A program made the translations under genes and the position numbers. Shown piece after piece: positions 496 through 21,858 of a stretch of DNA of 32,221 nt (its first letter is position 1; each line of letters begins with the position of its first letter). Location of the stretch: positions 1 to 32,221 of the forward strand of contig DVHF01000067.1 in NCBI GenBank assembly GCA_018712265.1. Direction: 5' to 3'. Source of the DNA: Candidatus Gallacutalibacter pullicola. Its GTDB lineage: Bacteria; Bacillota; Clostridia; Oscillospirales; Acutalibacteraceae. The notes under the pieces were generated by a model that was not told the DNA's origin, ran no database searches, and was given only the letters and a program-made list of their open reading frames with translations.

Positions 496-1875
496 ATGAA
501 GAAGGTATTCAGCCTTTTGCTGGCCTCGTTAATGGTTGTTTCCGCTCTTGGCGGATGCAGCAGTTCCAACAGTTCTTCCGCTTCCGGCAATTCTGCATCG
601 GAAACCTCTACGGCGGGAGAAAGCACGGCGCAGTCCGCAAGTACAGCCGAAAATTCAGCGGATGCCGGAGAAGTACAGATCGACTTCTGGCATTCCTTCA
701 GCTCGGGAACCAATTTGGATTGTATCGAGAAAATTATCTCCGATTTTAACGCGGCCCACGAAGGGGAGTACGAAGTGGTTGGAACCTATCAGGGCGGGTA
801 TGCCGATATCCTTTCCAAGCTCACCGTAGGCTTTGCGGCAGGCGAATGCCCGGCTGTTTCGTTCTGTGACTCGGTCGATACACCGCAGCTGATTATGAAC
901 GATATGCTCGTTGACCTGAGTACATATGCGGAAGAAAACGATCCTTCTTTCGATTTTGGACAATATATTCCCGGCCTGATGAATTACGGCACCGGTCCTG
1001 ACGGCGACTACTACGCATTGCCGTGCGGCCGTTCTACACCGCTGATGTATCTCAACCTTGATATCGTGGAGGATGCCACCGGTTCCAAAACGATTCCGGA
1101 TACACGCGATCAGCTCGTCTCCCTGCTGGAATCTGTCCGCGACAACACGGAGGCCACGCCTTTCATGGCTGATATGGTGTGCTGGTATTTTGGCAATTTC
1201 CTGACCAGCTCCGGAGGACATTTCCTCAGCGCCGACGGCAATACCTCTTATCTTGCTGTTGACAACGCCGCTCTCAACGCTTTCACCTTCTGGAACGATT
1301 TGAAAGAACAGGGTCTGTACAAGGCTGCTACGGTCGACGGCCTGAATGCGACGGATCAATTCATCAACGGCGATGTGGCTGTGATTTACCAGTCCACAGG
1401 CAGCATGACTCAGATTTACGACAATGCCCAGTTCGATATTGGAGTTGGTTTCCTGGTGGCCGATGAGTGCTACTCTGTTGCAACCGGCGGCAATAATCTC
1501 ATCATTATGAATACGGCGAGCGACGAAGAAATCGCTGGCGGATGGGAATTCATCAAGTATGCCACAAGCCTCGAAGTCAACGCCTATATCAACGAGGAAA
1601 CCGGATATATGCTTAACAATGTCAATTCCGGCTCCCTGGAGTCTGTCCAGAAGCTGTGGGAAGAAAAGCCGCAGTACAAGGTGGCTTATGACCAGCTTCA
1701 GTATGTGGACGACCAGTATGTCTCCCCGTACTTTGCTTCCCTGAACCAGGAAATCGTTGCCCTGCTCACCCAGATGCTTCAGGACGGCAGCCTCACTCCG
1801 GAACAGGCCACAGAACAGCTTCTGCTTATCTGTGACGAGCTCCTGCCCGGCGGCAACGCAGAAACCTATCCGTAA
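496..1875 (+). CDS. ABC importer substrate-binding lipoprotein, UgpB-like
   Basis: Extracellular solute-binding lipoprotein of a family-1 (MalE/UgpB-type) importer. Starting at ATG 496 gives a textbook lipoprotein signal: MKK, a hydrophobic stretch, then LGGC with Cys21 as the lipidated residue, followed by a Ser/Ala/Glu-rich linker to about residue 60. The frame is open back to GTG 433, but that would put 21 residues ahead of the signal peptide. GGTGAT four bases before 496 can pair with 16S rRNA. The mature part shows UgpB-like features: a DFWHSFSSG start, a YQGGYADIL segment, ALPCGRSTPLMYLN, FINGDVAVIYQSTGS and a GGNNLIIM hinge region. It heads an operon with its ATPase and permeases. Ligand inferred only: glycerol-3-phosphate, glycerophosphodiester or a related compound; a sugar is not excluded. 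Confidence 0.85.
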   Translation: MKKVFSLLLASLMVVSALGGCSSSNSSSASGNSASETSTAGESTAQSASTAENSADAGEVQIDFWHSFSSGTNLDCIEKIISDFNAAHEGEYEVVGTYQGGYADILSKLTVGFAAGECPAVSFCDSVDTPQLIMNDMLVDLSTYAEENDPSFDFGQYIPGLMNYGTGPDGDYYALPCGRSTPLMYLNLDIVEDATGSKTIPDTRDQLVSLLESVRDNTEATPFMADMVCWYFGNFLTSSGGHFLSADGNTSYLAVDNAALNAFTFWNDLKEQGLYKAATVDGLNATDQFINGDVAVIYQSTGSMTQIYDNAQFDIGVGFLVADECYSVATGGNNLIIMNTASDEEIAGGWEFIKYATSLEVNAYINEETGYMLNNVNSGSLESVQKLWEEKPQYKVAYDQLQYVDDQYVSPYFASLNQEIVALLTQMLQDGSLTPEQATEQLLLICDELLPGGNAETYP

Positions 1876-1962
1876 CGCAGGGGATTATCAGCCCAATCAT
1901 TTCCGATATGTTTTTTGAGAAAGGCGCTGCCGCAGGCTTATCCTGCTGCACAAATGCAAAAT

Positions 1963-1997
1963 GGCAGTCAAAAGAATTTCTTTTGACTGCCTGTCAT
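1963..1997 (+). terminator. Strong hairpin after the binding-protein gene
   Basis: GGCAGTCAAAAGAA (1963-1976) and TTCTTTTGACTGCC (1978-1991) form a perfect 14-bp palindrome, in practice about 12 bp with a 5-nt loop, followed by TGTCATTTTTTAA. It lies 88 bp past the stop of the binding protein and ahead of the ATPase gene. A partial terminator or mRNA-stabilising hairpin here would give an excess of binding protein over transporter subunits, a common arrangement. Confidence 0.8.
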
Positions 1998-2070
1998 TTT
2001 TTAAGGTCGGGAACGGAAAGCGCCTTTCTGTGATTTACACTCCAGAATGGGAACGGAGAGAAAGAAGAAG

Positions 2071-3117
2071 ATGGCAAAAATAGAATTAAGGAACGTATCG
2101 AAGCGCTTCGGTAATACAACTGTTGTGGAAAACTTAAATCTTACGATTGAAGATGGCGAGTTTGCGGTTCTGATCGGTGCGTCCGGATGCGGGAAAACGA
2201 CACTTTTGAGAATGATTGCCGGCATTGGTCCGCAGAGTTCCGGACAGGTGCTGATGGACGGCCAGGATATTTCCGATTTGCCGCCGGGAAAACGCGATCT
2301 GGCGATGGTTTTCCAGAACTACGCAATTTATCCGACGATGTCTGTGCGCGGAAATATCGAGTATGGCCTGAAGAATAAAAAGGTTCCGGCCGCGGAGCGA
2401 AACAGGCTGATTGAGGAAATCAGCGGGATTCTGGGGATCACGGAATATCTCGACCGCAGGCCCTCTCAGCTGTCCGGCGGCCAGCGCCAGCGCGTTGCCC
2501 TGGCGCGCGCGATGGTCAAAAAGCCAAAGGTGTTTTTGATGGATGAGCCGCTCTCGAATCTGGACGCAAAGCTGCGCAGCCATATGCGCGTCGAACTCAT
2601 TGAGCTGCACAAGAAGCTCAAAACCACGTTTGTGTATGTTACGCACGATCAGGTGGAGGCCATGTCTATGGCCGACAGGATCATCTTGATGGACAAGGGC
2701 ACCATTCAGCAGGAGGACTGCCCGGCTGAGATTTACAACAATCCCTGCAACCGCTTTACCGCACAGTTTATCGGTTCGCCTCAGATGAATATTCTGGAGA
2801 TTCCGGGTTCGGAGTTCTCCTTTGGCTTCCGTCCGGAAAAAATTGTGCTGTCTGAAACAGAGCTCCCCGATAAATTCCTGCAAACGAAGGGCTCCATCAT
2901 TACCAAGGAGATGCTGGGCAGCGAGACGCTGTATCAGCTTGGCTTTGACGGGATCTCCATCATGGCGAAGAGCCTGACGGATCGGTTTGACGACAATGTC
3001 TATTTCTCGTTAAACCGGGAGGATATCCTGATTTTTGACAAGGACGGCAAGCGTGTTTACAGCAGCGACAGCCGTTTTGACAGCGTACTGGAAAAGGTAG
3101 GAGGGATGAAAAAATGA
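2071..3117 (+). CDS. ABC importer ATPase, UgpC/MsmK type
   Basis: Cytoplasmic nucleotide-binding subunit powering the importer encoded around it. Walker A GASGCGKTT is at residues 36-44, a Q-loop in MVFQNYAIYP at about 79-88, signature LSGGQRQR at 134-141, Walker B VFLMDEP at 154-160 and the switch His in YVTHDQ at about 193. The roughly 110-residue C-terminal extension is the TOBE/OB domain typical of MalK/UgpC; at 348 residues the protein is slightly shorter than the usual 360-370. The start at 2071 has GGAGAG about 10 nt upstream; an in-frame ATG at 2047 lacks a site. The stop overlaps the next start as ATGA, implying translational coupling to the permease. Confidence 0.93.
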   Translation: MAKIELRNVSKRFGNTTVVENLNLTIEDGEFAVLIGASGCGKTTLLRMIAGIGPQSSGQVLMDGQDISDLPPGKRDLAMVFQNYAIYPTMSVRGNIEYGLKNKKVPAAERNRLIEEISGILGITEYLDRRPSQLSGGQRQRVALARAMVKKPKVFLMDEPLSNLDAKLRSHMRVELIELHKKLKTTFVYVTHDQVEAMSMADRIILMDKGTIQQEDCPAEIYNNPCNRFTAQFIGSPQMNILEIPGSEFSFGFRPEKIVLSETELPDKFLQTKGSIITKEMLGSETLYQLGFDGISIMAKSLTDRFDDNVYFSLNREDILIFDKDGKRVYSSDSRFDSVLEKVGGMKK

Positions 3118-3998
3118 AGTCCGACAGACTCCGTGAAAAATGTATCCCTTATCTTTTCGTGATTCCGGCCATGCTGTTCCTCGTTGTCTTTACGCTGTAC
3201 CCGCTCATTTACATGATTTACCTGTCCTTTACGGACTGGACGCTCGTATCCAAAACGAAAAACTTTGTCGGGTTTGACAATTTTGAATATATCTGGCAGC
3301 GTGCGGACTTCCTCAACGCATTGGGAAATACCTTTTTTTACACCTTCTGGACCGTTCTGACACTGATGATCGCTTCGATCCTTTTTGCCGTGTGGCTGCA
3401 TAAGGATACGCGTCTGAACAGCTTCACGCGCACGGCGATGTTTACGCCCCATGTCATCGCGCTGCTCTCTGTTTCCATGGTCTGGTCCTGGCTGATGAAC
3501 GAGGATACCGGCCTTTTAAATATGCTTCTTCAGTCCGTGGGGCTGCCCACCTCCCGCTGGCTGAATTCCAGTGATACGGCTATGGGCTCCATTGTCCTCG
3601 TCTCGTGGTGGCAGTCGGTGGGGTATTACACGCTGATCATTTTCGCTGCGCTTCAGGGGATCCCCTCAGAAATTTATGAAGCGGCCGATCTCGACAGCGC
3701 CGACCCGATAAATCGCTTTTTCAGGATCACCCTCCCGATGATTTCACCGCAGGTGTTTTTGTGCCTGATCACCATGACGATCGGCTCGTTCAAGGTTTTT
3801 GAGACGATCAAGGTCATGACAGCCGGCGGTCCGGGAAAATCCACACAGGTACTGGTCTACTATATCTACATTACTGCGTTTTCCATGCAGTTTAAAATCG
3901 GCATTGCCAGCGCCGCCGGTACGGTTCTGCTGATTATTGTCGGCCTGCTGACTATCCTGTACTTTGCGTTCCTTTCCAAAAAGGTTTTCTACCAATGA
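3114..3998 (+). CDS. ABC importer permease, MalF/UgpA type
   Basis: Integral membrane subunit of the carbohydrate-type ABC importer, 294 residues with about six membrane helices. The first helix (YLFVIPAMLFLVVFTLYPLI) is characteristic of the UgpA/MsmF group. The EAA loop that contacts the ATPase reads EIYEAADLDSADPINRFFRITLPM around residues 185-208, with the conserved EAA-x3-G region in its usual UgpA form. TAGGPGKSTQVLVYYIY near residues 240-256 is also typical. The ATG overlaps the ATPase stop by 4 nt, and its ribosome binding site (GGAGGG) lies in the end of the ATPase gene. Confidence 0.92.
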   Translation: MKSDRLREKCIPYLFVIPAMLFLVVFTLYPLIYMIYLSFTDWTLVSKTKNFVGFDNFEYIWQRADFLNALGNTFFYTFWTVLTLMIASILFAVWLHKDTRLNSFTRTAMFTPHVIALLSVSMVWSWLMNEDTGLLNMLLQSVGLPTSRWLNSSDTAMGSIVLVSWWQSVGYYTLIIFAALQGIPSEIYEAADLDSADPINRFFRITLPMISPQVFLCLITMTIGSFKVFETIKVMTAGGPGKSTQVLVYYIYITAFSMQFKIGIASAAGTVLLIIVGLLTILYFAFLSKKVFYQ

Positions 3999-4045
3999 AC
4001 CGCGCAGTGCATTTAAAAAGATTGATCCAGAAAGGAAACAGCAAT

Positions 4046-4912
4046 ATGCAAAATCAAGTTGGAGCTGCTGCGGTAAGCCCGCAGCAAAAAGCCATACAGA
4101 AAATTCTATGGTTCATCGGTATGCTGGCAAAGCTGGCTGTTATCGTCGTGTTTTTATTTCCGTTCCTGTGGATGCTTTCCACATCTCTCAAAACCTATAA
4201 TGAGGCCATTGCATACCCGCCCACACTGTTCATGGAGCAGCCTCAGTGGGAAAATTTCGCAGCAGTTTGGAACAGCGGCAATTATCCGCTGTACTTTCGC
4301 AATTCCATCGTTGTCACCCTTGCGATCCTTGTGATACAGCTGATTGTTTCCGTCCCCTGCGCTTACGCGCTGGCGCGGTATAAATTCCGTGGGGCGGGGC
4401 TGTGCTTTGCCGTTGTCCTGATTGCGTTCATGGTTCCCGGACAGCTGACGTTCGTCTCCATCTATATCATGTTTGCCGACCTTGGCATCCTCAACACCTT
4501 ATGGCCGCAGATCCTGCCCTTTGGTGCAAACGCGTTCGGAATCTTTATGCTCCGTCAGGCGTTCAAGCAGATCCCGGAGGAGATTGTGGAATCCGCGCGG
4601 CTCGACAGCGGATCCGAGCTGTCCATCATGTTCCGCATCCTGCTGCCTATGGCGAAGTCGTCCCTCGTCGCTGTGACGCTCTTCAGCTTTATTTCCCACT
4701 GGAATGACTATTTCTGGCCGTTCGTCATGACGAACGTCGATGAAATCCGCCCGCTGACTGTTGCAATCGCCCAGCTGCGCGACTCCGAAAACGGCAGCAA
4801 GTGGCAGATCGTTATGGCAGGCAACGTGATCCTTGTGATGCCGATCCTTGTGGTGTATATGTTCCTTCACAAGCGCATCATCAACGGTTTTGTATACGCC
4901 GGTATCAAATAA
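4046..4912 (+). CDS. ABC importer permease, MalG/UgpE type
   Basis: Second membrane subunit, 288 residues and about six helices, pairing with the MalF-type permease. The first helix ends in FPFLWMLSTSLKT, the usual MalG-family entry motif, and the EAA loop reads EEIVESARLDSGSELSIMFRILLPM. I place the start at 4046 because AAAGGA lies 8-12 nt upstream. An in-frame ATG at 3995 overlaps the previous stop (ATGA) but would add 17 polar residues with a weaker site; either may be used. The 76 bp to the next gene contain no terminator, so the phosphodiesterase is probably in the same transcript. Confidence 0.9.
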   Translation: MQNQVGAAAVSPQQKAIQKILWFIGMLAKLAVIVVFLFPFLWMLSTSLKTYNEAIAYPPTLFMEQPQWENFAAVWNSGNYPLYFRNSIVVTLAILVIQLIVSVPCAYALARYKFRGAGLCFAVVLIAFMVPGQLTFVSIYIMFADLGILNTLWPQILPFGANAFGIFMLRQAFKQIPEEIVESARLDSGSELSIMFRILLPMAKSSLVAVTLFSFISHWNDYFWPFVMTNVDEIRPLTVAIAQLRDSENGSKWQIVMAGNVILVMPILVVYMFLHKRIINGFVYAGIK

Positions 4913-4988
4913 GTAAAATTTCTTTCTCTGCCAATCCGTTCAGGCGGCGCATTTTAGCGAATGTTTTCATTCAGGAGGAATCAGCAAT

Positions 4989-6284
4989 ATGGCAAAGTAT
5001 ACGGTTGTAATTTCAGAGGACGCACTTCTATATGACGACTGGGAGATACTCAGGCAGCTTCCGGCGTTTTCTTCCATTTGGGACAGGGCGGCTATGGTCA
5101 AGCGGATGCGTTCCGTCTATCCCACCATTACCTATCCCTGCCACACCACCATGCGCACCGGATGTTTTCCGGACCGGCACGGCGTGATTAACAACGAGCA
5201 GACAATTCTCGGCGAGGTTTCGTCGCTGTGGGAACACTTTAACCACATTGTAAAGGTTCCTGATATTTTTGATCTTGCCAAGTCGATGGGGATGACGACA
5301 GCGGCCGTATTCTGGCCGGTGACGGGAAAGCATCCGCACATTGATTACCTCGTTGATGAGTACTGGCCGCAGCGTCCCGGAGAGGATGAAGCCGAGTGCC
5401 ATAAAGACGCAGGCTCCAGCGAGGAGGTTATGGAGATTATCCGGAATAATATCCATTTCTCCCGCGGCCATCAGAGACAGCATCCGTGGAACGACGAGTT
5501 TGTCAATGCCTGCGCCTGCGATATCATCCGCAGATTTAAGCCCAACCTGCTGATGATCCACCCCGGAAATGTCGACGGCTACCGCCATGAGGCCGGCGTC
5601 AGATCCATGAAGGCGATCCACGGGCTGCACGAGTGCGATCTGTGGCTGAGCGATATTTTGCAGGCGCTTGACGAGGCCGGTATCCGTCAGGAAACGAATA
5701 TTTTTGTCGTGAGCGATCACGGCCAGATGGATGTGCAGGGCAGCATCCATCCCAATGTGCTTTTGCACCGCGCCGGTCTGATCACGCTTGACCAGCAGGG
5801 CAATATCTCCGATTATGCGGCAATCGTCAAGTCTACCGGCGCCTCCTGCCAGGTTTATTTAAAAGATCCTTCCGACAAAGAGATATGGCAGAAAACCTAT
5901 CGCGTGCTTCAGGAAGCCTGCAAGGAAGGCATTTATGGAATAGAACGCGTCTTTACGACGGAAGAAATCGAAGAACAGGAGCATCTTTCCGGCGGCTTTT
6001 CCTTTGTTCTGGAAAGCAACGGCGTGTACTCCTTCGGCAACGATTGGAGGGAGCCGATCCTGCGCACATTCGACACGACCGATTATAAGCTCGGACACGC
6101 CACCCACGGATATCTGCCGGATAAAGGTCCCCAGCCGACCTTCCTCGCATTCGGGCCGGATATTCAGCCCGGTGTCGTAATAGAGCGCGGATCCATCGCC
6201 GATATTGCGCCGACGGTTGCGCACTCTTTCGGCGGAAAAATGGCTGATGTGGACGGCAGGGTGATTTCCGAAATCTTTCGGTGA
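4989..6284 (+). CDS. Cytosolic phosphodiesterase of the alkaline phosphatase superfamily (NPP-like)
   Basis: A 431-residue enzyme with the nucleotide pyrophosphatase/phosphodiesterase fold, expected to cleave a phosphodiester or phosphonate with two metal ions. The nucleophile region PTITYPCHTTMRTGCFPDRH at about 45-64 matches the NPP pattern with Thr48 as probable nucleophile. Metal-ligand motifs are NVDGYRH (Asp196, His200), SDHGQM (Asp243, His244) and the late HATHGYLP (His373). The first ligand segment is unusual: ISEDAL at 8-13 instead of the common DGxR. There is no signal peptide, so it works inside the cell on imported substrate. GGAGG nine nt before the ATG is a strong site. Its place behind a UgpB-type importer suggests it does the job done by glycerophosphodiesterase UgpQ elsewhere; this is inference. 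Confidence 0.82.
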   Translation: MAKYTVVISEDALLYDDWEILRQLPAFSSIWDRAAMVKRMRSVYPTITYPCHTTMRTGCFPDRHGVINNEQTILGEVSSLWEHFNHIVKVPDIFDLAKSMGMTTAAVFWPVTGKHPHIDYLVDEYWPQRPGEDEAECHKDAGSSEEVMEIIRNNIHFSRGHQRQHPWNDEFVNACACDIIRRFKPNLLMIHPGNVDGYRHEAGVRSMKAIHGLHECDLWLSDILQALDEAGIRQETNIFVVSDHGQMDVQGSIHPNVLLHRAGLITLDQQGNISDYAAIVKSTGASCQVYLKDPSDKEIWQKTYRVLQEACKEGIYGIERVFTTEEIEEQEHLSGGFSFVLESNGVYSFGNDWREPILRTFDTTDYKLGHATHGYLPDKGPQPTFLAFGPDIQPGVVIERGSIADIAPTVAHSFGGKMADVDGRVISEIFR

Positions 6285-6301: not shown

Positions 6302-8791
6302 TTATAAATACCTCCCCGTGATGCTTTCGGGATTTCCTGCGATTTGGGCGGGCGTACCGGCCGCGACAATCCTGCCGCCCTCCTCGCCGCCGCCCGGACC
6401 CATATCGAGGATGTAGTCTGCGCTGCGGATTACGTCGAGATCGTGCTCGATCACGATGACGGTCGCGCCCTGATCCAGCAGGGTGCGGAACACGCCGAGC
6501 AGCGTCTGCACGTCGAGCGGGTGCAGGCCGATTGTCGGCTCGTCAAAGACAAAGACGGAATCCGACTGCCCCCGGCCCATCTCGCTGGCAAGCTTCAGCC
6601 TCTGCGCCTCGCCGCCGGAAAGGCTCGGCGTTGCTTCGCCCAAGGTCAGGTAGCCCAGCCCCAGATCCCGCAGAACCTCAAGCCGCTGCCGCACAAGCTT
6701 CATTCCGGCACAGGCTTCCAGCGCGGTATTCACATCCATCGCCATCAGCTCCGGCAGGGAATAGGCCCGTCCCGTTTTTTCCTGATGACGCACCAGTCCC
6801 GCGTCCTTTGCGTAGCGCGATCCGCGACATTCCGGGCATGGGATCTCCACGTCCGGCAGGAACTGGACGTCCAGGCTGATGACGCCCGTGCCGTCGCATA
6901 CAGGGCAGCGCAGCTTTCCGGTATTGTAGGAGAAATCCCCGGCTTTCAGGCCCATGCGCTTGGCGTCCGGCGTGCGCGCGTAGATTTTGCGCAGCTCGTC
7001 GTGGACGTTCGCGTAGGTCGCCACAGTGGAGCGGACGTTGATGCCGATCGGCGTAGCATCGATCAGCCTGACGCGCCCGATGCCCTCCGCTTCTATGGAA
7101 CGGACATGGTCCGGCAGCTTCGTCCCGGCGATGGACGATTCAAGCGCCGGGATCAGGCTTTCCAGAATCAGCGTCGTTTTTCCCGAACCGGAAACGCCGG
7201 TCACAACGGTCAGCCTGCCCTTGGGGATCTCCGCTTCGAGCGGCTTCACGGTGTGGATAGACGAGGTGGAGAGGTGGATCCTCCCGTTCCGGAACAGCGT
7301 GCCTGCGTCGGTTTGGCGAAAGCTCCTGTCTTTTCCGGCGAGAAAGGGGCCGATCAGGGACTGCTCGCTGTCTGCGAGCGCGGCGGGGGAGCCCTGGGCG
7401 ATCACATGGCCGCCGTCCGCGCCGGCCCGCGGGCCCATTTCTATGATCCAGTCGGCCTCCGACAGGATCTGCGCGTCGTGATCCACCAGCAGCACGGAGT
7501 TGCCGTCCGCGACGAGATCGTGCATCACCGCCGTCAGACCGCGCAGGTTGGCCGGGTGCAGCCCGATGGACGGCTCGTCGAGCACATACAGCACGCCGGT
7601 GGTCCGGTTGCGCACGGCGCGGGCGAGCTGCATCCGCTGGCGTTCCCCGGTGGACAGGGTGGAGGCGGCGCGATCCAGCGTGAGGTACCCGAGCCCCAGC
7701 TCCATCAGACGGCGGGCGGGCGTCCGGAACGACGCGCAGATGCTTTCCGCCATGGGGCGCATCTCCTCCGGCAGCGAGGACGGTACGCCGTCCACCCACC
7801 GCAGCAGGGCCGACAGCGTCATTTTACAGGCCTCGTCCAGCCCGATCCCGCGCAGCCTTGGCGCTCTCGCCGCTTCGGAAAGGCGCGTGCCGCCGCAGTC
7901 GGGGCAGACGTCCTCCCGGAGGAACTTTTCCACCCGCTTCATGCCCTTTTCGTCCTTGACCTTTGCCAGCGCGTTTTCCACCGTGTACACCGCGTTAAAA
8001 TACGTAAAGTCCAGCTCCCCGGCCTGGTTGGAGTTTTTTGGGTGGTAGAAGATGTGCTTTTTGACGGCAGGGCCGTTGTAGACGATGTCCTTTTCCTGGT
8101 CGGTCAAATCGCGGAACGGGACGTCGGTGCGGACGCCCATCGCGCGGCAGACCTCCGTCATCAGCGACCACATCAGCGTGTTCCACGGAGCCACCGCGCC
8201 CCCGTTGATGGTGAGGGAGTCGTCGGGGACGAGGGAATCGCGGTCCACGGTGCGCACGATGCCGGTCCCGCCGCAGGTGCGGCACGCGCCCTGGCTGTTA
8301 AAGGCGAGTTCCTCGGCGCCCGGGGCGAAAAAGTGCGCGCCGCACTCCGGGCAGACGATCTCCTGCTCCGCCGCGACCGCCAGAGTGGGAGGAACCATGT
8401 GCCCGTTCGGACAGCGGTGGCTCGCCAGACGGGAAAACATCAGCCGGAGGCTGTTGAGCAGCTCCGTGCCGGTGCCGAACGTGCTGCGTATCCCGGGGAC
8501 GCCGGGCCGCTGGTGCAGGGCCAGCGCCGCCGGGACATACAGCACCTCGTCCACCTCCGCCCTGGCCGCCTGCGTCATGCGGCGGCGGGTATAGGTGGAG
8601 AGCGCCTCCAGATAACGCCGGGATCCCTCGGCATACAGGACGCCGAGCGCAAGCGACGATTTCCCGGATCCGGATACGCCTGCAATCCCGACAATCTGGT
8701 TCAGCGGGACATCCACATCGATATTTTTCAGGTTATGCACCCTTGCGCCCCGGATTTTGATCGCTTTGGGGGCTTCTGCCTGCTCTTTCAT
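6302..8791 (-). CDS. UvrA paralogue lacking the UvrB-binding domain (UvrA2/DrrC-like)
   Basis: Double-ABC ATPase of the UvrA family, 829 residues against about 940 for housekeeping UvrA. Walker A sites are GVSGSGKS at 38-45 and GVSGSGKTT at 532-540; signatures LSTGERQR at 379-386 and LSGGEAQR at 724-731; Walker B/D-loops VLDEPSIGLHP near 403 and VFDEPTIGLHP near 747. Cys pairs occur at 147/150, 170/173 and 629/632, 652/655. After LMFSRLASHRCPNGH (about 117-131) the chain passes almost directly to the Zn module, so the roughly 115-residue UvrB-interaction domain is absent. Such paralogues are linked to damage tolerance or intercalating-drug resistance rather than normal excision. Start at 8791 chosen for AGAAAGGGA just upstream. 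It converges with the phosphodiesterase gene, 17 bp apart. Confidence 0.9.
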   Translation of the reverse strand: MKEQAEAPKAIKIRGARVHNLKNIDVDVPLNQIVGIAGVSGSGKSSLALGVLYAEGSRRYLEALSTYTRRRMTQAARAEVDEVLYVPAALALHQRPGVPGIRSTFGTGTELLNSLRLMFSRLASHRCPNGHMVPPTLAVAAEQEIVCPECGAHFFAPGAEELAFNSQGACRTCGGTGIVRTVDRDSLVPDDSLTINGGAVAPWNTLMWSLMTEVCRAMGVRTDVPFRDLTDQEKDIVYNGPAVKKHIFYHPKNSNQAGELDFTYFNAVYTVENALAKVKDEKGMKRVEKFLREDVCPDCGGTRLSEAARAPRLRGIGLDEACKMTLSALLRWVDGVPSSLPEEMRPMAESICASFRTPARRLMELGLGYLTLDRAASTLSTGERQRMQLARAVRNRTTGVLYVLDEPSIGLHPANLRGLTAVMHDLVADGNSVLLVDHDAQILSEADWIIEMGPRAGADGGHVIAQGSPAALADSEQSLIGPFLAGKDRSFRQTDAGTLFRNGRIHLSTSSIHTVKPLEAEIPKGRLTVVTGVSGSGKTTLILESLIPALESSIAGTKLPDHVRSIEAEGIGRVRLIDATPIGINVRSTVATYANVHDELRKIYARTPDAKRMGLKAGDFSYNTGKLRCPVCDGTGVISLDVQFLPDVEIPCPECRGSRYAKDAGLVRHQEKTGRAYSLPELMAMDVNTALEACAGMKLVRQRLEVLRDLGLGYLTLGEATPSLSGGEAQRLKLASEMGRGQSDSVFVFDEPTIGLHPLDVQTLLGVFRTLLDQGATVIVIEHDLDVIRSADYILDMGPGGGEEGGRIVAAGTPAQIAGNPESITGRYL

Positions 8792-8859
8792 AAAACATTC
8801 CCTTTCTGACTGCCGCCGCGCGCCCTGTGCGCCGCGGATCATTGTGTGTCTGCATACGG

Positions 8860-8895
8860 AAAAGGACCGCACCGGAACAGCGATGCGATCCTTTT
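8860..8895 (-). terminator. Terminator hairpin after the GH120 gene
   Basis: AAAAGGACCGCA (8860-8871) and TGCGATCCTTTT (8884-8895) pair along 12 bp; on the minus-strand RNA the one mismatch becomes a G-U wobble, and the hairpin ends in UCCUUUUCC. It lies between the xylosidase stop and the UvrA-like start, so it probably ends the xylosidase transcript. Confidence 0.55.
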
Positions 8896-18059: not shown

Positions 18060-18416
18060 TTATGGTTTCGAGGGGATCGTTTTGGTCGCGATAAAATCAA
18101 CGCCCAGTCCCAGAATATTGGGAACGACGACATCCCCGGTTTTCACAGGAGCATGAGCTGTGACCGTGTCCAGCAGGGCCATAGCGCGGAAAATATCCTG
18201 TTTGGGAATATCGGCGCTCGTCTTGACCGGGAGACGGCACTGCGCCGCGCCCTCCAGCCGCACCGTCGAGGTAATGACGCGCGTGGGGTTCGTCAGCTCC
18301 TTATGTCCATACTCCGCGCCGCGCGGACAGCCGTTCCCCGTCACGGAAAAGCCGTTTTCCTCGTCTACTTTCAGATGGCATCCCTTGGGGCACACAATAC
18401 AAATCAGCTCTTTCAT
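18060..18416 (-). CDS. DUF1667 protein, small Cys-rich partner of the G3P oxidoreductase cluster
   Basis: A 118-residue protein with a Cys-rich head, CIVCPKGC (Cys6, Cys9, Cys13) and NGCPRG (Cys30), able to bind a metal or iron-sulfur cluster, followed by the conserved NPTRVITSTVRLEG and VPVKTS-like (LPVKTSADIPK) core of DUF1667. In many anaerobes this gene follows the FAD/NAD oxidoreductase and the GlpO/GlpA-like dehydrogenase, as it does here, and the three are thought to form an electron-transfer complex. Its ATG overlaps the preceding stop by 4 nt. Function is inferred from neighbourhood. Confidence 0.88.
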   Translation of the reverse strand: MKELICIVCPKGCHLKVDEENGFSVTGNGCPRGAEYGHKELTNPTRVITSTVRLEGAAQCRLPVKTSADIPKQDIFRAMALLDTVTAHAPVKTGDVVVPNILGLGVDFIATKTIPSKP

Positions 18417-19684
18417 GGTTGCACCTTCTTTTCCGCTTCCACCACGGAGACCGTAATGGTATGATCCTGAATTTTGGAGAACAGCGCCTTGGGAAATACG
18501 ATCTTTTCCATTTCGCCGGGGGCCATATGCTCGCGCCGGAACGAGGCAAGCACCTCGCCGCCGGAGGTGATCCGGATCTCCCTGTCGCGGTACACATTAT
18601 TGGTGCGGAAGAAAATCTCCACAAATTTGCCGACGTGATCCGGCCGCACATGCTGCGGGACAGTATAATTGACAGCTTCTCCGTTTTCAATCCGGAAGGA
18701 TTCCCCGGAGCCTGCGTCCGGATTTTTGGCGAATTCCGCCGCGCCGCGTCCGGCGCGCTGGCTCTCCGCCGTCACGAAATCGACGAGATCATGCACATGT
18801 ACTACGTTGCCGCTGGCGAATACGCCAGACAGGGAGGTCTCCATGTTTTCCCAGACGATCGGGCCGTTTGTGCGGCGGTCTATCTCGATCCCCGCCTGTC
18901 GCGAGAGCTCGTTTTCCGGAATCAGGCCGACGGAAAGCAGGATGGTGTCGCAGTCGAACACGATTTCCGTCCCGGGGATGGGGCGGCGGTTCTCGTCCAC
19001 GCGCGAGACGACGGCCTGCTCCACCCGCTTATCGCCGCGGATCTCCGTGATGGTGTGCGACAGGTACAGCGGGATGTCGTAGTCGTTCAGGCACTGAACA
19101 ATATTGCGGTTGAGGCCGTTGGAATAGGGCATCAGCTCCACACAGCCGAGCACCTTTGCGCCCTCGAGCGTCATGCGGCGCGCCATGATCAGCCCGATGT
19201 CTCCGGAGCCGAGAATCAGCACGCGCTTGCCGACGAGGTATCCCTCGATGTTCATATAAAGCTGCGCCGCCCCCGCGGTAAAGACGCCCGCAGGACGCGT
19301 GCCGGGGATGGCGATAGCGCCGCGCGTGCGCTCCCGGCAGCCCATGGTGAGCACGATGGCTTTCGCCTGAAGCTGGAGATAGCCGCGCTTTTTGCTCATC
19401 GCGTGCACCGTGCGGTCCGGGGAAATGTCCAGCACCATCGCGCCGTCCATCACCTCGATATCGGTGTGGGAGAGCTCCTCGATAAAGCGTCCGGCATATT
19501 CCGGGCCGGTCAGCTCCTCCTTAAAATAGTGCAGGCCGAAGCCGTTGTGGATACACTGGTTCAAAATCCCGCCCAGCTCATTGTTGCGCTCCAGAATCAA
19601 TACCTTTTCCGCGCCGTTTTTCCGCGCCTCAAGCGCAGCGGCAAGACCCGCCGGGCCTCCGCCGACCACAATTACGTCATACAT
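18413..19684 (-). CDS. FAD/NAD(P)-dependent oxidoreductase of the GlpO-DUF1667 cluster
   Basis: A 423-residue pyridine-nucleotide-disulfide-oxidoreductase-fold flavoprotein. The N-terminal VIVVGGGPAGLAAALEA binds FAD, LGGILNQCIHNGFGLHYF near residues 42-59 is typical of this subgroup, and VLILGSGDIGLIMARRM around residue 150 is the NAD(P)H site. GVFASGNVVHVHDLVDFVTAES near 300 is the second FAD contact. It likely passes electrons between the G3P-oxidising subunit and NAD(P) or another acceptor. The start at 19684 overlaps the upstream TGA by one base (TGATG); the frame remains open to 19870 but that part is the out-of-frame end of the neighbouring gene. Confidence 0.9.
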   Translation of the reverse strand: MYDVIVVGGGPAGLAAALEARKNGAEKVLILERNNELGGILNQCIHNGFGLHYFKEELTGPEYAGRFIEELSHTDIEVMDGAMVLDISPDRTVHAMSKKRGYLQLQAKAIVLTMGCRERTRGAIAIPGTRPAGVFTAGAAQLYMNIEGYLVGKRVLILGSGDIGLIMARRMTLEGAKVLGCVELMPYSNGLNRNIVQCLNDYDIPLYLSHTITEIRGDKRVEQAVVSRVDENRRPIPGTEIVFDCDTILLSVGLIPENELSRQAGIEIDRRTNGPIVWENMETSLSGVFASGNVVHVHDLVDFVTAESQRAGRGAAEFAKNPDAGSGESFRIENGEAVNYTVPQHVRPDHVGKFVEIFFRTNNVYRDREIRITSGGEVLASFRREHMAPGEMEKIVFPKALFSKIQDHTITVSVVEAEKKVQP

Positions 19685-21120
19685 CACAGCCGTCCCCCTT
19701 CTTTTGTCCTGCCGAGGATAATATTCATCCCGTCGCGGTCCTGCGGGATCTGATCCATAGGCAGGCCGAGCTCGCGCGCGACAATCTCCTGCACCCTCGG
19801 TCCGCAGAAGCCGCCCTGACAGCGGCCCATGCCGGAGCCGCACCGCCGCTTCACGCCGTCGATGGAGCACGGCGGGATCGGCCTGTGCAGCGCGGCGACG
19901 ATCTCGCCCTCAGTGATCGTCTCGCAGCGGCACACAATCTGCCCGTACGCCGGATTCTGCGCAATCAGCGCCGCGCGCTCCTCGTGGCTGAGCTCCTTGA
20001 ACCGGACGACGCGCCGCGTATCCTCAAAGCTTTCCTTTTCCTCAAGCGCAAGGCCCGCCTCCCCGAGCATCCTGACGAGGTCCTTTGCGATGGCCGGCGC
20101 GGAGGTGAGGCCCGGGGACTTGATCCCCGCCACATCGAAAAATCCGGGGACGTCCGATTCGCCGATCAGGAAATCGTCGATCTCTGAAATGGCGCGCAGT
20201 CCGGCGAAGTTCCGGATGGAATCGCGGAAGCTGATGCAGGGGACGGAACGCAGCGCCGTCTGCCGGACGAAATCCAGACCCGCGGCCGTGTTCGCGAGAT
20301 CCCCGGGCACGGTGTCGTGCGCGTTGGGGCCGACGATCAGGTTCCCGTGAACCGTCGGCGAAACGAGGACGCCCTTGCCGTCCTTGTTCGGACACTGGAA
20401 AATCACATGGCTGACAATGCCGCCCTGGCTTTTATCCATCAGATAATATTCGCCCTTGTTCGGCGTGATGTGGAAAAACGGTTTCGCGATCATATTGTGC
20501 ACCCGATCGCTCGCTACGCCCGCCGCATTGATGACGAACCGCGCCGTTACCGTTTTGCCGCCCGCCTGGATGGCAAACGCGCCGTCCTGCTTCTCGATCG
20601 CCGTGACCTCAGAGCGGAGCATCACCTCCGCGCCGTTTTTCACAGCAGTTTCGGCCATTGCGATTGCCAGCTCCCACGGGCTGACGATCCCGGCGCTGGG
20701 GGCATACAGGGCGGCGATCGCCTTTTCGCTCACATTCGGCTCCATTTCGTGGAGCTCGCTGGAATTCAGGATCTTCATCCCCGGCACGCCGTTTTCCATC
20801 CCGCGCTCGTACAGCTTTTCGATTGTGCGGCAGTCCTCCTCCGAAAAGGCCAGCACCAGCGATCCCACCGGCTTGAACGGCACGTCCAGCTTTTCGCACA
20901 GCTCGTGGATCAGCCTGTTGCCCTCCACGTTATAGCGCGCCATGAGGCTGCCCGGCTCCGGATCGTACCCTGCGTGGACGATCGCGCTGTTGGCTTTCGT
21001 CGTGCCGACGGAAACGTCGTTTTCCTTTTCCAGCAGCACAGCGGACACCCGGTACCGCGACAGCTCGTAGAGCAGGGAGCATCCACAGATTCCCCCGCCG
21101 ATAATTGCTACATCATACAT
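19684..21120 (-). CDS. Glycerol-3-phosphate dehydrogenase-like flavoprotein with BFD-type iron-sulfur domain
   Basis: A 478-residue DAO-fold protein of the GlpO/GlpA-like clostridial group. FAD site AIIGGGICGCSLLYELSRY at about 5-23; diagnostic GTTKANSAIVHAGYDPEPGSLMARYNVEGN; the C-terminal domain holds four Cys in CRCETITEGEIV and CGSGMGRCQGGFC, the BFD-like [2Fe-2S] site found in GlpA. Expected to oxidise glycerol-3-phosphate to dihydroxyacetone phosphate, but homologues also act on other hydroxyacids, so the substrate is inferred. Start 21120 has GGAGGG about 11 nt upstream; ATG 21138 is the alternative. First gene of a three-gene coupled operon; may consume G3P produced by the importer/phosphodiesterase system at the left of the window. 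Confidence 0.88.
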   Translation of the reverse strand: MYDVAIIGGGICGCSLLYELSRYRVSAVLLEKENDVSVGTTKANSAIVHAGYDPEPGSLMARYNVEGNRLIHELCEKLDVPFKPVGSLVLAFSEEDCRTIEKLYERGMENGVPGMKILNSSELHEMEPNVSEKAIAALYAPSAGIVSPWELAIAMAETAVKNGAEVMLRSEVTAIEKQDGAFAIQAGGKTVTARFVINAAGVASDRVHNMIAKPFFHITPNKGEYYLMDKSQGGIVSHVIFQCPNKDGKGVLVSPTVHGNLIVGPNAHDTVPGDLANTAAGLDFVRQTALRSVPCISFRDSIRNFAGLRAISEIDDFLIGESDVPGFFDVAGIKSPGLTSAPAIAKDLVRMLGEAGLALEEKESFEDTRRVVRFKELSHEERAALIAQNPAYGQIVCRCETITEGEIVAALHRPIPPCSIDGVKRRCGSGMGRCQGGFCGPRVQEIVARELGLPMDQIPQDRDGMNIILGRTKEGGRL

Positions 21121-21143
21121 TCCAAAATAACCCTCCATTCCAA

Positions 21144-21204
21144 ACAAAAAAGAGTTAAGCAAACAAAGCTCTGCCGTTCCGCAAAGCTTTTTCTGCTTAA
21201 CTCT
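21144..21204 (-). terminator. Terminator after the macro-domain gene
   Basis: AGAGTTAAGCA (21151-21161) and TGCTTAACTCT (21194-21204) are perfect 11-bp arms with an inner AAAGCT/AGCTTT pairing. On the minus strand the stem ends in a T-run (21150-21144). It separates the macro-domain gene from the G3P oxidoreductase operon, which must then have its own start just inside or below it. Confidence 0.8.
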
Positions 21205-21279
21205 CAATTCTCCAAAGCAATTTTTATTTACTTGTTACAGCTGAATACAGGCTGAACCTGTTTCTCAGCACGGAACCCG

Positions 21280-21741
21280 TTATAATTCCCAAATTTCCAC
21301 GGTGATGTCCGGGCCGGAAAATACATCACTGATGATGCCGAAAACAGTTTCCCAATCCCCGCCGCCATAGCCGCACCCGATTTTATAGGGGAGCGCCGCC
21401 GCGTGAATCCCCTTTTCCGCCGCCCATGCGCGGACAGATTCCAGGGAACTGCGGAGGGCATCGTATTCTGTTGACTGTTTTATCAGAGATGTTTTATATT
21501 GCCCGAAACAGTTTGCGATGTATCTGCCTTCACAGCCATCCGCGGGCAGGATCTGGGCAAAGCCCATCAATTCCCGGCCCCTGTGCGCCCTGCAAAGCGA
21601 CCTGTATTCCTCATATACACCCGGATACAAACGCTTTACCTGTTTGGCGATGCCGGCGCCCATGGAACCCATACAGTTCACCTGATGGCAGAGCACGGGA
21701 GCACTGCTCGAGAATAGATTGCCCTTTTTCTGTACCACCAT
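21280..21741 (-). CDS. Macro-domain protein (ADP-ribose binding or hydrolysis, TARG1/ALC1-like)
   Basis: A stand-alone macro domain of 153 residues. The ADP-ribose loop 1 region reads GNLFSSSAPVLCHQVNCMGSMGAGIAKQVKRLYPGVYEEY (about 7-46), with the QVNCMGSMGAGIA segment typical of the TARG1/ALC1-like branch that removes ADP-ribose or binds its derivatives. KIGCGYGGGDWETV near 120-133 forms the second phosphate loop. Start 21741 is preceded by GGAGACGGGAACT; the frame is open to 21801 without a better start. No DarT-like ADP-ribosyltransferase is next to it, so a DarTG toxin-antitoxin role is not supported here. It is transcribed away from the repeat array at 21859-22053. Confidence 0.88.
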   Translation of the reverse strand: MVVQKKGNLFSSSAPVLCHQVNCMGSMGAGIAKQVKRLYPGVYEEYRSLCRAHRGRELMGFAQILPADGCEGRYIANCFGQYKTSLIKQSTEYDALRSSLESVRAWAAEKGIHAAALPYKIGCGYGGGDWETVFGIISDVFSGPDITVEIWEL

Positions 21742-21858
21742 AGTTCCCGTCTCCACGTTTACAGCTGTCTGCAATCGTATCCCCGACCAGCTTTCCACCA
21801 CGACTGCGTATTTGAAGTTACCAGCATTTCAGCGGAGATCACGATGCGCGGCGCGAAT

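Follow-up and report, generated by a model that had tools for sequence, protein, structure and literature searches.

The 32,221-base contig DVHF01000067.1 of Candidatus Gallacutalibacter pullicola (assembly GCA_018712265.1), which was analysed over its whole length and is referred to as the window, with window base 1 being contig base 1, carries at positions 496 to 6284 a five-gene operon that joins a Ugp-like ATP-binding cassette (ABC) importer to a phosphodiesterase of the NPP type. The operon is probably an import-and-cleave system for a small organic phosphodiester, a function deduced from the sequence and from structural models. The lipoprotein solute-binding protein (SBP) would capture the ligand by its phosphate, using a Tyr/Ser/Ser/Tyr clamp that it has in common with UgpB, and the permease pair and the ATPase would carry the ligand into the cell. 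There the cytosolic NPP, predicted to be a two-metal phosphodiesterase with a Thr nucleophile, would cleave it to give an alcohol and a phosphomonoester, both of which may then enter central metabolism. The clade of the importer lies next to, and not within, the UgpB/UgpQ-type importers. The ligand probably has no glycerol-3-phosphate head, and a sugar or polyol phosphodiester is its most likely class, as suggested by the polyol and pentulose genes found near relatives of the enzyme.

Gene layout and the NPP-type enzyme

The original prediction for this stretch had described an SBP, an ATPase, two permeases and a phosphodiesterase in one operon, and the open reading frames (ORFs) and the Pfam/NCBIfam matches agree with this layout, which is as follows:

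496 to 1875, + strand: solute-binding lipoprotein of the ABC importer, UgpB-sister clade (Pfam/NCBIfam, clamp residues, tree, predicted structure)
1963 to 1991, + strand: hairpin with a 13-bp stem between the SBP and ATPase genes, with a T-rich stretch after it; possibly a partial terminator
2071 to 3117, + strand: ABC ATPase, UgpC/MalK-like (Pfam/NCBIfam)
3114 to 3998, + strand: ABC permease, UgpA-like (Pfam/NCBIfam)
4046 to 4912, + strand: ABC permease, UgpE-like (Pfam/NCBIfam); start favoured by the ribosome-binding-like AAAGGAAA upstream, with an alternative ATG at 3995
4989 to 6284, + strand: cytosolic NPP-type phosphodiesterase of the S-x-D-A-[LM] subfamily (Pfam, alignment, predicted fold)

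By Pfam, the importer parts form a CUT1 set, consisting of a lipoprotein of SBP_bac_1/8 with a lipobox (LGGC) visible in its N-terminus, two BPD_transp_1 permeases and an ATPase. The ATPase and the permeases are UgpC-, UgpA- and UgpE-like, every one of them under its NCBIfam cut-off. The count of hairpin-type sites across the region was not above that of shuffled sequences, and a promoter scan of the region gave nothing above chance. Nothing upstream of the SBP gene is visible, because the window starts at the contig end. The five-gene order is identical in a same-genus genome (L005) and in two further metagenome-assembled genomes (L008 and L011), whose NPPs are 89%, 82% and 74% identical to the window enzyme, respectively, and the arrangement is therefore not a matter of chance. 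In the same-genus operon, the ATPase gene (L005:4359-5413) consists of two overlapping ORFs (4359-4826 and 4823-5413), reflecting either a sequencing error or a broken gene, and the NPP is likewise spread over two ORFs in L008 and L037.

The enzyme matched PF01663 (Phosphodiest) with 143.8 bits against a cut-off of 23 (E 1.3e-41); Pfam gave only a weak Sulfatase match besides, and PF03009, the GDPD/UgpQ domain, was not found in it. Its predicted structure has a mean predicted local distance difference test score (pLDDT) of 96.5, with the first core beta-strand already at residues 4-9. Since the protein starts directly with this strand, there is no room for a signal peptide, as had been predicted. 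The closest solved folds were ENPP7, ENPP5, Xac NPP, ENPP4 and ENPP6, with Z between 37 and 39.5 over about 350-363 residues and 16-21% identity. Catalytic positions were placed by alignment to Xac NPP, and D11, T48, N69, D196, H200, D243, H244 and H373, which we take to be the ligands of the two metals and the Thr nucleophile, are all found in the window enzyme, each being kept in 84-85 of the 87 aligned rows, with gaps in the remainder.

The first metal motif, ISEDAL, retains the metal Asp (D11), the sole change being Ala for the Gly of DG. The Asp occurs in 85 of the 87 rows, followed by Ala in 83 and Ser in two, with gaps in the other two rows. The S-x-D-A motif is thus a feature of the whole subfamily, with the metal ligand and the other catalytic residues intact. 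It had been proposed that this atypical motif is a sign of an unusual substrate, an argument that is weak because D11 is kept and D-A is family-wide. The subfamily is marked by S-x-D-A-[LM] at the first metal motif and D-x-x-R-H at the second, and the Arg before the metal His is invariant, a position held by Gly in the alignments to Xac NPP and ENPP1. The match to the solved phosphonoacetate hydrolase PhnA (E 0.06 with the single sequence, 1.3e-9 as a profile) falls far below the NPP matches; PhnA and other families were absent from the VIA-align list of structures, an absence that does not exclude them. The window genome holds no second relative of the enzyme, whose distribution is patchy, with 4 of 300 same-family genomes (the window's own included) having it at E 1e-20 or better.

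Phosphate clamp and clade of the binding protein

The SBP matched SBP_bac_8/SBP_bac_1, and UgpB (NF008211) was its only NCBIfam match, at 101 bits without reaching the 411-bit cut-off. In an account of the UgpB pocket published in 2025 (PMC12718374; numbering of PDB 9lff), the phosphate is contacted by Tyr64, Ser143, Ser266 and Tyr342 and the glycerol hydroxyls by Gly303, Arg393 and Glu88, with Trp188 and Trp191 forming a clamp; the Tyr pair and the Ser pair are described there as conserved in glycerophosphocholine- and dinucleotide-binding relatives and not in glucose-binding ones. All four phosphate contacts are kept in the window SBP, as Y102, S180, S300 and Y371. Among the glycerol-side equivalents, Gly303 is kept as G332, Glu88 corresponds to D125 (phmmer alignment) and Arg393, which is R397 in Escherichia coli, to N417, and of the clamp tryptophans Trp188 is lost (M227) and Trp191 kept (W230). 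The predicted resemblance to UgpB therefore stands for the phosphate contacts and the sole NCBIfam match, but it stops short of the cut-off, the glycerol-contacting Arg and one Trp, and the protein belongs to another clade, so that by these comparisons it does not count as a UgpB.

The SBP model (mean pLDDT 88.1) had as its first Foldseek rows a binding protein for the phosphodiester uridylyl-3'-5'-phosphoguanosine (UpG) and then E. coli UgpB. The top VIA-align row was Mycobacterium tuberculosis UgpB with glycerophosphocholine (Z 45.9, root-mean-square deviation 2.1, 381 residues), with sugar binders about 2 Z units under it, and the pocket was not found to match those of sugar-binding homologues, a match that the original prediction had named as evidence to the contrary.

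Two collections of related loci were compared. The enzyme-first set of 82 loci was made up of the best 80 of 154 loci with relatives of the enzyme, less two duplicates, plus the window and three regions. The SBP-first sample, which avoids an enzyme-based choice of loci, was obtained by using the window SBP as the query against 394 same-order and 391 same-class genomes, with at most about four candidates scored per genome; it comprises 43 other SBP matches at E 1e-18 or better, taken with their flanks, a few of them on short contigs. The full clamp is present in 25 of 29 NPP-linked SBPs (of the four without it, three come from truncated genes and that of L040 is unrelated), and the four clamp residues are included in the 11 invariant columns among 23 aligned NPP-linked SBPs. 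None of the 13 other SBP_bac_1 proteins of the window genome has it, these being distant rows in which the alignment is less sure. The glycerol-contacting Arg is rare in NPP-linked SBPs (1 of 29) and common in GDPD-linked ones (8 of 10). An Arg directly before the pocket Ser was found in 23 of 29 full-clamp NPP-linked SBPs (19 of 25 and 4 of 4 in the two collections) against 1 of 10 GDPD-linked ones.

A quick maximum-likelihood tree was built from 70 SBPs, without the truncated or unrelated ones of L023, L044 and L083 (L040 was also left out of the Fisher counts). The window SBP falls in a set of 31 rows, 29 of which are NPP-linked, with a support of 98 in the SH-like approximate likelihood ratio test (SH-aLRT), and E. 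coli UgpB, whose branch is long, falls in a separate set of 14 rows, 11 of which are GDPD-linked with E. coli counted (SH-aLRT 99). The gene beside the SBP in the SBP-first sample is an NPP in four loci, a GDPD in 11, neither in 28 and both in none. Six of these 43 SBPs belong to the window's clade, and all six adjoin a phosphoesterase-type gene, drawn from three unrelated folds: NPP in four, GDPD in one (L161) and a PHP-domain CehA/McbA-type metallohydrolase in one (L123). NPP thus adjoins 4 of 6 in-clade SBPs against 0 of 37 out-of-clade ones (hypergeometric 15/123410, about 1e-4).

From these comparisons, a phosphate-ligand importer working with a cytosolic phosphodiesterase, as originally predicted, is supported by the kept UgpB phosphate ligands and by NPP and GDPD as alternatives beside Ugp-like SBPs. 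The further idea that the NPP replaces UgpQ holds in so far as unrelated phosphoesterases fill the slot in turn; replacement on the same glycerophosphodiester is not supported, because the NPP-linked SBPs form their own clade without the glycerol-contacting Arg. A true Ugp system would import a glycerophosphodiester such as glycerophosphocholine, with the NPP releasing glycerol-3-phosphate in place of UgpQ or, in the manner of ENPP6, phosphocholine and glycerol. Such a system would suit the kept phosphate clamp, pocket Gly and W230, the glycerophosphocholine complex at the top of the VIA-align rows, the presence of the glycerophosphocholine phosphodiesterase ENPP6 among the close folds, and the glycerol-phosphate genes described below for related loci and for the window at 18060-21207. 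The Asp at position 125 suits it too, the glycerophosphocholine-binding protein described in PMC12718374 likewise having Asp there; that protein, however, retains the Arg (Arg385), where the window SBP has Asn417. Together with the rarity of this Arg in NPP-linked SBPs, the change of Trp188 to Met227 and the separate clade, this makes a true Ugp system rather unlikely.

Strict mutual exclusion of NPP and GDPD, which is true in the 43-locus sample, is broken by L029 and L069, where NPP, ABC genes and GDPD occur together; the window genome has two GDPDs elsewhere. The PHP metallohydrolase gene of L123 (6054-7013, - strand) lies 45 bases downstream of the Ugp-like in-clade SBP, and relatives of it are also present at three other loci with Ugp-like SBPs (L127, L180 and L173). 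A further Ugp-like group (the SBPs of L165, L171, L172, L183, L124, L126, L175, L176 and L179) has an N-K-S pocket motif and the full clamp, with neither NPP nor GDPD adjoining.

Neighbouring genes of the enzyme and the likely ligand class

Genes of the enzyme-first loci were called with an amino-acid composition score, and annotation covered between one and three representatives of each neighbour cluster. One of the 82 loci is that of Hungatella effluvii DSM 24995 (L086), which has a homologous cluster. FGGY kinases were present in 17 of the 82 loci, Zn-dehydrogenases in 12, DeoR regulators in 11, PfkB kinases in seven and class II aldolases in six, with representatives nearest to xylulokinase/ribulokinase and galactitol-1-phosphate dehydrogenase, and further ones nearest to tagatose-6-phosphate kinase or 1-phosphofructokinase and to tagatose/fructose-bisphosphate aldolase. 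Catabolic clusters, counted as FGGY kinase, Zn-dehydrogenase, PfkB kinase, class II aldolase, glycerol-1-phosphate (G1P)-dehydrogenase-like and GpsA-like genes, were present in 27 of the 82 loci, in 15 of them together with ABC genes. The enzymes of L009, L010, L013 and L023 share about 53-74% identity with that of the window, and in these four loci the ABC and NPP genes are accompanied by an FGGY kinase gene, an aldolase gene and one resembling galactitol-1-phosphate dehydrogenase; three of the four also carry a PfkB-type kinase. By their annotated representatives, L053 and L059 hold ribulokinase-, ribulose-phosphate-epimerase- and G1P-dehydrogenase-like genes. The polyol and pentulose genes therefore suggest that the imported molecule contains a sugar or polyol, possibly with a glycerol phosphate half.

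No nucleoside-catabolism genes were found among the annotated neighbour clusters, which bears on another reading, namely that short RNA or DNA dinucleotides or other nucleotide derivatives are imported and cleaved by the NPP into nucleoside and nucleotide. NPPs are classically nucleotide enzymes, the aromatic Y49 after the nucleophile is kept along with N69, and the protein that best matched the SBP model in Foldseek is bound to UpG. However, its margin over the UgpB-type structural matches is small, and with polyol and pentulose genes as the neighbours we consider a dinucleotide importer very improbable.

As a wider and more tentative proposal, for which the odds are in our view somewhat against, the window's importer may represent a previously undescribed Ugp-like clade, found here in Clostridia of gut and rumen and in some Spirochaetota. 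This clade would be dedicated to phosphodiesters of sugars or polyols other than those of glycerol-3-phosphate, no fewer than three unrelated enzymes (NPP, GDPD and PHP) would have occupied its phosphodiesterase slot, and the products would feed pentulose and hexulose pathways. If so, gut Clostridia would possess a pathway dedicated to the use of phosphate-linked sugars or polyols as food. No route of such make-up was found in the literature searched, which comprised open-licence PubMed Central papers, nor was any paper on the enzyme-importer pair. Such importers might then be told from UgpB by a pocket rule (the phosphate clamp is retained, the glycerol Arg is missing and the residue preceding the pocket Ser is Arg), and genome annotation is likely to call them glycerol-3-phosphate transporters by similarity.

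Several observations weigh against an import-and-cleave system for sugar or polyol phosphodiesters. The original prediction had named conservation of the enzyme away from any UgpB-type importer as evidence to the contrary, and this is partly what was found: homologous ABC genes lie within six genes of the NPP in only 33 of 82 loci and not in the other 49 (about 60%), and 37 loci have neither ABC nor catabolic genes. At least four genes are present on both sides in 51 of the 82 loci, 24 of these with ABC genes, and some contigs are short. Catabolic genes are absent from the window's own operon, the upstream side of which is lost at the contig end. Neighbours resembling glycerol-phosphate dehydrogenases (GpsA-like in seven loci and G1P-dehydrogenase-like in six) would fit a glycerol moiety. 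In structure, the phosphodiester binders (Z 44-46) and the sugar binder GacH (44.0) are separated by a gap within or near the limit of a tie. The clamp was complete in 4 of 4 NPP-linked and 10 of 11 GDPD-linked SBPs of the SBP-first sample, but also in 14 of the 28 with neither gene adjoining; it therefore marks a wider UgpB-like group and is no proof of a phosphodiester. Finally, Fisher values overstate independence, because the Arg and clade differences mostly follow one tree split.

The many loci without ABC genes, and the commonness of CUT1 importers, would also be expected if an ordinary sugar importer stood next to a housekeeping phosphodiesterase by chance. Against this stand the kept phosphate clamp, the concentration of NPP beside in-clade SBPs in the SBP-first sample, and the gene order, which is kept in L005, L008 and L011, with ABC genes and NPP rearranged yet together in many other loci. 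A chance pairing is accordingly improbable, and import and cleavage of a phosphodiester is the reading we favour.

Several other genes were noted. A HAD phosphatase was considered as an operon part and rejected: in L005 it is located upstream of the operon, but its relative in the window genome (78% identity) is inside another contig; HAD phosphatases come after in several other loci. A GpsA-like partner in the window genome was not found at E 1e-5 (one query, no positive control), and Zn-dehydrogenase relatives there, with up to 36% identity, were uninformative. At 18060-21207 (- strand), 12 kb from the importer, the window carries a GlpA-like gene (DAO and Fer2_BFD), a GlpB-like Pyr_redox_2 gene and a DUF1667 gene, which likely form a glycerol-3-phosphate dehydrogenase operon; the GlpA-like gene matches the type 2 glycerol-3-phosphate oxidase family at E 2e-95, under the cut-off. 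A macrodomain protein resembling the antitoxin half DarG (NF048014, E 6e-19, under the cut-off) is encoded at 21280-21801 (- strand), and an 856-aa UvrA-like protein, which matches a UvrA DNA-binding domain, at 6302-8872 (- strand), convergent to the operon.

Comparison with known systems

The operon would work like UgpBAEC-UgpQ of E. coli (L104): in both, a CUT1-type importer whose phosphate clamp is of the UgpB type is encoded in one cluster with a cytosolic phosphodiesterase. It differs in that the enzyme is an NPP and not a GDPD, and in that the SBP, of another clade, lacks R397 and one clamp Trp equivalent. In structure, the SBP model comes closest to M. tuberculosis UgpB (6r1b, with glycerophosphocholine) and the Thermus dinucleotide-binding protein (7c0f series, whose PDB titles indicate a ligand co-purified from E. 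coli), at about 20-22% identity and with glycerol-side contacts differing from those of the window; neither is known to have an NPP partner. According to PMC12718374, the phosphate contacts by a Tyr pair and a Ser pair are common to both. In the alignment made here, the Thermus protein has Thr at the second Ser position.

With the NPP/ENPP family (Xac NPP, 2gsn, and ENPP1-7), the window enzyme shares the fold, the two-metal site, the Thr nucleophile and the Asn, but it is cytosolic, has DA and not DG, carries an invariant Arg before the metal His, and is only about 16-21% identical over the fold. Bacterial uptake and hydrolysis of sugar phosphodiesters are shown by experiments on agrocinopine (PMC4526662) and xanthosan (PMC12807533), as reported in these papers, and the operon might, by analogy, serve a comparable use. 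The agrocinopine system (AccA-ABC, AccF and AccG) likewise pairs an ABC importer for a sugar phosphodiester with an intracellular phosphodiesterase, a likeness put forward as an analogy only. Xanthosan is also taken up and hydrolysed for nutrition by XanT-XanP, which, in contrast, consists of a predicted outer-membrane transporter and a 2H phosphoesterase.

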